DNA of 64,000 nt, taken from contig NZ_CP160906.1 of assembly GCF_041080865.1 (NCBI RefSeq), positions 3,371,629 to 3,435,628 of the forward strand, written 5' to 3'. Numbering within the stretch: position 1 is the stretch's first letter; the number at the start of each line of letters is the position of its first letter. The DNA comes from Psychromonas sp. MME1 (GTDB taxonomy: Bacteria; Pseudomonadota; Gammaproteobacteria; Enterobacterales; Psychromonadaceae). A program made the position numbers and the translations under genes. Below are positions 531 through 61,510 of this stretch, in pieces. Under the pieces are notes generated by a model, which saw nothing but the letters and a program-made list of their open reading frames with translations, made no database searches and was not told where the DNA came from.

Positions 531-692
531 ATACCAACTCCGGTAAGTATGTGATCTAAATTTTGCGTAGGAAAAATAGCTTAATTCAAGGCGTAATTTG
601 ACGTAAATGGTTATTCCCTTTGCGAAAATTACAACGCAGCAGTAAGTTGTTTTAACCAGTAAAATAGATCAGCTATTTATCGGAATTGGTAT
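531..692 (-). repeat. Dispersed MITE-like repeat, copy 1
   Basis: This 162-bp element begins ATACCAACTCCGGTAAGTAT and ends in the inverted equivalent CGGAATTGGTAT. The outer 27 bases of the two ends match as imperfect inverted repeats (about 21 of 27). Related copies are at 2752-2909, 53101-53252 and 61293-61510. The orientation is called minus because the side ending in CCAGTAAAATAGATCAGC is on the right. An internal hairpin spans 593-632 with arms GTAATTT and AAATTAC. No open reading frame is present, so if mobile it would depend on a transposase elsewhere. The MITE interpretation is inference from the structure. Confidence 0.85.
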
Positions 693-929
693 TAAATTGC
701 GCAGTGAAGTAATGCTAAAAGCCGTTTACATTATTTCCCTCTATGGTGTATATGCGCTGTGTATTCTCCTGTGGTTGCCTATGTGGTGCATTTTTTGACT
801 GTTCCCGTTGCGCATAATACCATTCCGCATAATATTGTAATATTGTGGTCACCCATTAGTTAGTTCCGGTCAGGGCTTGTTTAGGAAAAATGATGGAGAG
901 CAGGGGGCATGATTGAGTAATAGCAGGTT
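693..929. other. Intergenic stretch without a supported gene
   Basis: Between repeat copy 1 and the relic repeat there is no convincing coding region. The only open frame with an ATG is a hydrophobic 28-codon one at 712-798 with a weak ribosome binding site. I see no tRNA, terminator or clear promoter. Confidence 0.5.
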
Positions 930-1004
930 ATTACGATTGAATGCAACGCTGTTATCTATTATTTTAACCAATAATCTAGATCAGATACTTATGTGGATTG
1001 GTAT
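930..1004 (-). repeat. Degenerate right-end relic of the dispersed repeat
   Basis: Bases 962-1004 align without gaps to the right end of copy 1 (650-692), with roughly three quarters identity, including TTTTAACCA, TAGATCAG and the terminal ATTGGTAT. Weaker similarity (GCAACGC...) continues a little upstream. The left half of the element is not recognisable, so this looks like an old, truncated copy just in front of hipBA. Confidence 0.55.
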
Positions 1005-2752: not shown

Positions 2753-2909
2753 TATCAATCGGAGTAAATAGCTGATCTATTTTGCTGGTTAAAGTAACTT
2801 ACTTTTTTGTTGTAAGTTTCGTAAAGGGATCAACCATTTACCTCAACTTATGCCTCAAATTAAGCCATTTTTCCTGTGCAAAATTTAGATCACATACTTA
2901 ATCCGAATA
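2752..2909 (+). repeat. Dispersed MITE-like repeat, copy 2
   Basis: This is an inverted-orientation relative of copy 1 that starts at the hipA stop codon with TATCAATCGGAGTAAATAG and ends near ACATACTTAATCCGAA. The hairpin arms are at 2812-2818 (GTAAGTT) and 2845-2851 (AACTTAT), with the inner stem GTAAA/TTTAC. The outermost bases of the right terminal repeat are eroded. Confidence 0.82.
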
Positions 2910-52391: not shown

Positions 52392-52484
52392 GGTGGGGTG
52401 GCCGAGTGGCCGAAGGCGCTCCCCTGCTAAGGGAGTAACGGGTTTATAGCCTGTTCGAGGGTTCGAATCCCTCCTCCACCGCCA
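52392..52484 (+). tRNA. tRNA-Ser (GCT)
   Basis: This 93-nt tRNA has a long variable arm. The acceptor stem GGTGGGG pairs with CTCCACC (one G-T), the anticodon loop is CTGCTAA, giving GCT, and T-arm GTTCGAATC and encoded CCA end are present. It corresponds to E. coli serV downstream of csrA. Confidence 0.97.
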
Positions 52485-52502
52485 TTCTTGTAGATTCTTA
52501 AA

Positions 52503-52579
52503 GCGGGTGTAGCTCAGCTGGATAGAGTACCTGGCTACGAACCAGGCGGTCAGGGGTTCGAATCCCTTCACCCGCACCA
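52503..52579 (+). tRNA. tRNA-Arg (ACG), copy 1
   Basis: This 77-nt tRNA has acceptor GCGGGTG / CACCCGC, anticodon loop CTACGAA (ACG, to be deaminated to ICG by TadA), T-arm and encoded CCA. It begins a tandem array with 142-bp period. Confidence 0.97.
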
Positions 52580-52644
52580 TCTCTTTTGCAGGATATGGTT
52601 AGCGCTAAGAATCGAATGTAAAACAAAAAATAAAGAATATCGCG

Positions 52645-52721
52645 GCGGGTGTAGCTCAGCTGGATAGAGTACCTGGCTACGAACCAGGCGGTCAGGGGTT
52701 CGAATCCCTTCACCCGCACCA
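52645..52721 (+). tRNA. tRNA-Arg (ACG), copy 2
   Basis: Same sequence as copy 1, and the 65-base spacer that follows is identical as well, so 52503-52644 and 52645-52786 form an exact 142-bp duplication. Confidence 0.97.
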
Positions 52722-52786
52722 TCTCTTTTGCAGGATATGGTTAGCGCTAAGAATCGAATGTAAAACAAAAAATAAAGAATATCGCG

Positions 52787-52863
52787 GCGGGTGTAGCTCA
52801 GCTGGATAGAGTACCTGGCTACGAACCAGGCGGTCAGGGGTTCGAATCCCTTCACCCGCACCA
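52787..52863 (+). tRNA. tRNA-Arg (ACG), copy 3
   Basis: Third identical copy in the same 142-bp phase. It is followed by a different spacer containing a UUCG-type terminator. Confidence 0.97.
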
Positions 52864-52873
52864 TTCTTATAAG

Positions 52874-52894
52874 CTTACTTCGGTAAGTTTTTTT
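52874..52894 (+). terminator. UUCG-loop terminator inside the tRNA-Arg array
   Basis: CTTAC-TTCG-GTAAG is followed by seven T, between the third and fourth tRNA-Arg. It could stop transcription before the fourth copy. Confidence 0.8.
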
Positions 52895-52940
52895 GTTTAC
52901 AGAGCTCAATAATATTAATCCCATTAATATTATGCACCAT

Positions 52941-53017
52941 GCGGGTGTAGCTCAGCTGGATAGAGTACCTGGCTACGAACCAGGCGGTCAGGGGTTCGAA
53001 TCCCTTCACCCGCACCA
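52941..53017 (+). tRNA. tRNA-Arg (ACG), copy 4
   Basis: Identical to the other three tRNA-Arg genes with CCA encoded, but in a different context, 47 bases after the UUCG terminator. It may depend on read-through or a promoter of its own. Confidence 0.97.
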
Positions 53018-53100: not shown

Positions 53101-53252
53101 ATACCAATCGGAATAAATAGCTGATCTATTTTACTGGTTAAAATAACTTACTTTTTTGTTGTAAGTTTCGCAAAGGGAACAACCATTTGTGTCAACTTAC
53201 GCCTCAAATTAAGCCATTTTTCCTGCGCAAAATTTAGATCACATACTTAATT
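53101..53252 (+). repeat. Dispersed MITE-like repeat, copy 3
   Basis: ATACCAATCGGAATAAATAG opens the element, ACATACTTAAT closes it; the outer bases of the right end are eroded. Hairpin arms lie at 53161-53167 and 53194-53200. It sits 83 bases behind the tRNA array and ahead of the epimerase-like gene. Confidence 0.85.
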
Positions 53253-53375
53253 ATTCAATGATGCGCCTTGCTCTCCATCCTTTTTCCCTGCAAGCCATGA
53301 CCATCCTATTATGCGAATAGGTATGAGTCATTCATCGGTTTGGCGCAAATGGTTCTCTTTTGATAAGGAAATTTA

Positions 53376-54180: not shown

Positions 54181-54278
54181 AAGAAAAATAGCACCAATCT
54201 GCTTTGTTATAAAATCTCGATGTAGAATAACTATGCTGCAAATTTTTGCCTCGCATCTCGGCACTATTTTTCCTTTTA
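54181..54278. repeat. Possible second type of small inverted-repeat element
   Basis: GAAGAAAAATAGCACC on the left and GGCACTATTTTTCC on the right are imperfect inverted repeats enclosing about 70 bases without a reading frame. Only this copy is in the window, so repetition elsewhere is a prediction. Confidence 0.35.
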
Positions 54279-61292: not shown

Positions 61293-61510
61293 ATACCAAT
61301 CCCTATTATTGTCTGATTGCGTAATAAGTACGATTTTCATCTCAGGTGAAGTAGCTTTAAGTATGAGATCTAAATTTTGCGCAGGAAAAGTGACTTAATT
61401 TGAGGCGTAAGTTGACGCAAATGGTTGTTCCCTTTGCGAAACTTACAACAAAAAAGTAAGTTATTTTAACCAGTAAAATAGATCAGCTATTTATTCCGAT
61501 TATATGGTAT
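61293..61510 (-). repeat. Dispersed MITE-like repeat, copy 4 (with internal insertion)
   Basis: Orientation as copy 1. ATACCAAT at the left end is separated by about 56 extra bases from the rest of the left terminal repeat, which resumes near AAGTATGAGATCT (about 61358). Hairpin arms GTAAGTT (61407-61413) and AACTTAC (61440-61446) are perfect, with inner stem CGCAAA/TTTGCG. It fills the luxS/corB convergent gap. Confidence 0.85.

Follow-up and report, generated by a model that had tools for sequence, protein, structure and literature searches.

Bacterial MITEs such as ERIC, the Correia elements and QMITE1/2 are reviewed in PMC10969869 (for QMITE see also PMC5896051). They are usually pictured as inverted-repeat ends with a passive middle, and their folds are taken as by-products. 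The repeat analyzed here resembles these elements in that it is short, AT-rich and intergenic, carries terminal inverted repeats (TIRs) and target duplications, occurs in dozens of copies and has a stable predicted fold. It differs from them in three respects: its fold is backed by phylogenetically corrected covariation, its length of 159–160 bp is held across many genera, and its core is common to elements with other TIRs. ERIC has a 127-bp consensus; the unit found here comprises 160 bp with TACC ends.

Hairpin modules are also known from other mobile systems. REPINs carry two REPs, and like the REP/REPIN sequences associated with RAYT, the module described below occurs in non-autonomous elements either alone or as two inverted units. 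However, with 83 nt its core is larger than a REP (20–40 nt), and it comes with TIRs and TNA duplications. An assignment to the REP class, which is defined by 20–40 nt and a GTAG-like foot, was rejected on the size of the core and on the foot of the element, which reads TACC/GGTA. In integron attC sites it is the folded strand that is recognised, with structure counting more than sequence; in contrast, we saw no attC consensus by eye and no gene cassettes here, and a target duplication is present. IS200/IS605 elements have neither TIRs nor a target duplication of 3 bp, and their transposition is marked by a lagging-strand bias; the element, with TIRs, TNA flanks and no strand bias, does not match this type.

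The window, i.e. the whole stretch of DNA that was analyzed (64 kb, positions 3,371,629–3,435,628), belongs to a Psychromonas genome consisting of a single 3.59-Mb contig. Three sequence searches seeded with different copies put the copy number of the element in this genome at 73 or more, and four good copies lie within the window. Two subfamilies can be distinguished, A (TACCAATTCCGG...) and B (TACCAATCGGAT...), whose outer TIR differs as a block (TTCCGG versus TCGGAT) with both ends matched. Copy 1 (532–691, + strand, R1 175.3 bits) belongs to subfamily A and has both TIRs intact; besides its 100% self match, about 31 sister copies with 95–99% identity were found among the matches listed. 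The other three copies belong to subfamily B: copy 2 (2753–2912, - strand, R1 154.7 bits) and copy 3 (53102–53263, - strand, R1 153.3 bits) have a decayed left TIR, and copy 4 (61346–61505, + strand, R1 146.5 bits) is altered at both ends. Decay at the ends is thus seen in element copies. A divergent member of the same architecture is located at 818–1003 on the + strand, with the TIRs TACCATTCCGCA and TACCAATCCACA (R1 48.4 bits at 850–1003). Between the oppositely oriented copies 1 and 2 we noticed a HipB/HipA-like gene pair (HTH_3, HipA_C; 1116–2752), and the pair together with both flanking copies has the appearance of a unit capable of moving or recombining. The stretch 52392–53014 holds five tRNA genes; the later ones sit in 142-bp tandem repeats that are nearly identical to one another, two units being 100% identical.

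By its structure the 160-bp repeat is a MITE, a non-autonomous DNA transposon: it combines TIRs, a target-site duplication, a short length without a transposase gene and a high copy number. The copies measure 159–160 bp and start and end with TACCAA.../...TTGGTA; across all fetched loci, 111 of the 128 elements bounded by TIRs and TNA flanks have this length. In copy 1 the left TIR (532–556, + strand, TACCAACTCCGGTAAGTATGTGATC) pairs with the right TIR (667–691, + strand), and the element is flanked by the duplicated target site TTA, present identically at 529–531 and 692–694. Identical 3-bp TNA flanks were found for 59 of 74 copies in the host genome and for 95 of 133 full-length copies across the order (TTA 51, TAA 40, TGA 2, TCA 2). 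In one nested case a B copy is interrupted by an A copy that has TAA at either end, and removing one TAA gives back an intact B copy. The interrupted B copy represents the empty site, showing that the A copy inserted cleanly.

A pattern for the right arm was confined to Psychromonas records across the genome collection. Across the order, a model built from the Psychromonas alignment detected the element in 107 of 295 genomes, covering 26 of 99 genera. Distant blastn relatives lie on a plasmid of Pseudoalteromonas sp. CuT4-3 and on replicons of Vibrio casei, Vibrio sp. THAF190c and Photobacterium sp. GJ3; a search for phage carriers gave no match. A further Psychromonas genome (G014) contains 244 terminal-repeat matches, equivalent to about 120 copies. 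The searched ends are identical in most of the matches listed, which suggests recent activity.

We looked for an enzyme acting on these ends. No partner transposase was found in 18 stretches around orphan ends of G014, two of which were read for ORFs, and a search with the long TIR pattern in the host genome and G014 gave no autonomous partner with the ends of the element. Some IS5-group and PIF/Harbinger elements make a 3-bp duplication of the TNA type, similar to that of the element, but the PF01609 transposases found in five genomes have other ends, and classification as an IS5-type (PF01609) MITE was dropped. One PF01609 insertion sequence is present in six copies in the host genome (G000:C1:71984, 762376, 1299316, 1447254, 3094449, 1342114); its ends read GAGGCTGTAGAATTTCTC and it has a 3-bp flanking match.

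The whole 160-nt element (532–691) is predicted to fold into one long hairpin on the + strand. For the stretch 525–700 the + strand reached -58.8 kcal/mol (z -6.8), an energy that no shuffled sequence attained, versus -37.6 kcal/mol (z -3.5) for the - strand. Within the hairpin, helix 4 is formed by GTAATTT (593–599) and AAATTAC (626–632) on the + strand. The first-pass annotation had pointed out that the corresponding arms read GTAAGTT and AACTTAC in other copies, and this double change in copy 1 was confirmed. Further inward, at 602–624 of the + strand, follows the apical stem CGTAAA/TTTGCG with its loop, which holds the conserved GTTATTC and whose letters are kept throughout the class. For this inner stem (602–607/619–624) the pairs reported earlier, T-G in copy 1, T-A in copy 2 and C-G in copies 3 and 4, were all recovered. 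However, the stem is not intact in copy 3: its arms CACAAA and TTTGCG place an A-C mismatch beside the C-G pair.

The few changes among the copies of the window are no proof on their own; the proof comes from copies of other species. In an alignment of 31 sequences, almost all from Psychromonas, 26 of the 56 pairs show pair-keeping changes on both sides, and 95.8% of the cells pair, compared to 89.1% after shuffling and 30–47% for slid structures. For the covariation analysis we used our own R-scape-like test, which combines a G-test with average-product correction, a FastTree tree and Fitch reconstruction. Two null models were applied: substitutions were moved either among columns within a branch, or among branches within a column. 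A test over all copies of this genome, as the first-pass annotation had proposed, gave no significant pair (58 distinct copies, phylogenetic null), which we attribute to low power. Across the order, with 82 non-redundant sequences aligned without reference to structure, 11 of 39 structure pairs were significant and none outside the structure. Under the stricter column-rate null 5 of the 39 remained, and in a two-set test 17 passed, again with none outside. The pair at 597–628, at which the double change in helix 4 had first been noticed, has the top covariation score with 14 inferred double-change branches. In the TIRs, alignment pairs 9-152 and 10-151 covary significantly. Over the whole order-wide tree we counted 162 one-sided pair-keeping changes and 131 double changes. 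Across a bacterial order, the fold of the element is upheld by compensatory changes and changes of the G-U type.

Several matches of the order-wide search spanned only model positions ~42–124 and were located in elements without TACC ends. This part corresponds to the innermost 83 nt of the element, the core hairpin, which in copy 1 extends from 573 to 655 (+ strand, R2 87.2 bits, E 3e-18). In copies 2 to 4 it is found at 2789–2871 (- strand, R2 72.1 bits), 53138–53220 (- strand, R2 81.5 bits) and 61387–61469 (+ strand, R2 86.2 bits), and the divergent member contains it at 887–967 (+ strand, R2 29.1 bits). A further core-like hairpin at 54186–54267 (- strand, R2 39.7 bits, E 1.2e-6) has no detected enclosing TIR. 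We built a core model of 83 nt from 26 cores taken from TACC and other elements. Double changes occur in 26 of its 28 pairs, and two G-C pairs are invariant. The core is built from three stacked helices whose sequence is free, together with an internal loop AAGGC/AACG and a loop GTTATTC or GTTGTTC; only a few letters are conserved, most of them at unpaired positions (AGGC, AAC, loop T.GT....C). Among 369 genomes sampled across the class Gammaproteobacteria, 106 contained the core (82 of 272 genera), and a phylum-wide sample also placed it in genomes beyond the class.

The core is a separate module that also resides within small elements with other TIRs. Besides TACCAA (with TNA), the enclosing inverted repeats include GGAACCTCTGATTAATTC (also 160 bp), TATACCCAAGCCACTTC, CTAGTACTCTTTCAAGG, GGGGCAGGTCGAAATAATATT, GGGAACACTGATTAGTG and others, giving at least five TIR types other than TACCAA, although the TIR finder was simple and some assignments may be off by a few bases. 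Two cores in head-to-head arrangement are found in elements of ~255 bp. When 92 core sequences from across the class, with a mean identity of 54%, were put through the same covariation test, 19 of 27 pairs were significant; of two other significant pairs, one is an extra nested pair extending the same helix and one is a neighbour of a structure pair. Together with the order-wide pairs and the double changes at 597–628, these data support the earlier suggestion of selection for structure. In comparison with the Rfam 15 covariance models only chance-level matches far below gathering were obtained, and no known family was identified. Our literature search by topic and by sequence strings, covering sources outside ISfinder and subscription journals, returned no description of the element, and an earlier one is possible. 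The core thus represents a structured family absent from Rfam, whose members could otherwise be misread as scattered small RNAs.

We then considered on which strand and at which time selection acts. Among single changes away from Watson-Crick pairs, read on the + strand, 100 led to G-T and 34 to A-C (tree count, p 1e-8), and the excess is found both in the outer arms (40 versus 13) and in the inner helices (60 versus 21). A duplex inverted repeat gives no reason for such an excess; the bias shows that one folded strand is under selection. RNA parameters favoured the + strand in 77 of 82 elements and DNA parameters in 74 of 82, so the folded strand could be either RNA or single-stranded DNA. 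In contrast, recent substitutions in the host genome were near neutral (23 G-T versus 18 A-C), close to the expectation from drift, and among the host-genome copies 77 pair-breaking versus 52 pair-keeping branches were inferred. The simplest reading is that selection acts on active source copies between bursts and that inserted copies drift.

None of the element sites overlaps a long ORF (124 sites with usable flanks). Based on ORF-derived gene calls the orientation relative to neighbouring genes is not significantly biased: 42 co-directional cases versus 31 (p 0.24), with 35 convergent and 16 divergent. GC skew at 22 places located the origin and the terminus of the host genome near 3.0 Mb and 1.2 Mb, respectively, and the element strands showed no replication-strand bias relative to these points. 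There is consequently no sign of a lagging-strand single-strand step. The lack of a recent G-T bias, of a significant orientation or strand bias and of insertions in ORFs fits selection for the spread of the element itself.

The recurrence of the core in different small mobile elements likewise suggests that the folded strand is a shared requirement for spread. On balance we lean towards a MITE-like element in which the folded strand, and chiefly its core, provides a recognition site on which active copies depend to be mobilised or propagated. The element would move as a MITE by means of a trans-acting transposase; here TIRs, target-site duplication and nested insertion are observed and the enzyme is presumed. 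The core would be a site acting in cis, which a protein would recognise in its folded single-stranded form, selection would act on the active source copies that require it, and copies would drift once inserted. Selection on one strand, the sharing of the core among elements with other TIRs and the drift of inserted copies lead us to this role. In a wider form, which we put forward tentatively, the core may be an old single-strand module recognised by structure and common to unrelated MITEs of the Gammaproteobacteria, with matches in other classes of the phylum, and propagation would depend on a shared host or trans-acting factor reading the fold. The middle of a MITE is here structurally conserved over many genera with significant covariation, and elements whose ends differ have it in common. 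Should mobility require the fold, this points to an unknown recognition step beyond the TIRs.

Alternatively, transcribed copies could act as cis-regulatory elements or small RNAs useful to the host, and this use would keep the structure. In Coxiella, small RNAs derived from MITEs are known (PMC5896051), and the tolerance of G-U pairs on one strand, the conserved loops and internal loops and the intergenic location of the copies would all agree with such a role. We nevertheless regard it as unlikely, as it does not account for the unbiased orientation towards neighbouring genes, the near-neutral recent changes, the surplus of pair-breaking branches in the host genome and the decay at copy ends. 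It is improbable, too, that an HUH-type transposase (REP/RAYT or IS200/IS605-like) uses folded single-stranded DNA as its substrate here: strand asymmetry, the conserved hairpin and the REPIN-like arrangement of two cores in the ~255-nt elements speak for it, but TIRs with a 3-bp target duplication are foreign to IS200/IS605 and a replication-strand bias is missing. Already disfavoured, and very improbable in our view, is the absence of structural selection, with either TIR recognition in double-stranded DNA or hairpin template switching and gene conversion keeping the arms complementary; the block-wise A/B difference matched at both ends would suit it, but not the G-T excess, the many one-sided pair-keeping changes beside the double changes, the conserved unpaired letters or the retention of the same core within other TIRs.

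Apart from the standard unit, longer variants of ~220–290 bp (L087, L096, L097, L135, L150:554-784) carry extra TTCG-loop hairpins in the apical region. Two copies (L008, L031) combine an A end with a B body or the reverse and lack a matching target duplication, as if copies had recombined with each other.
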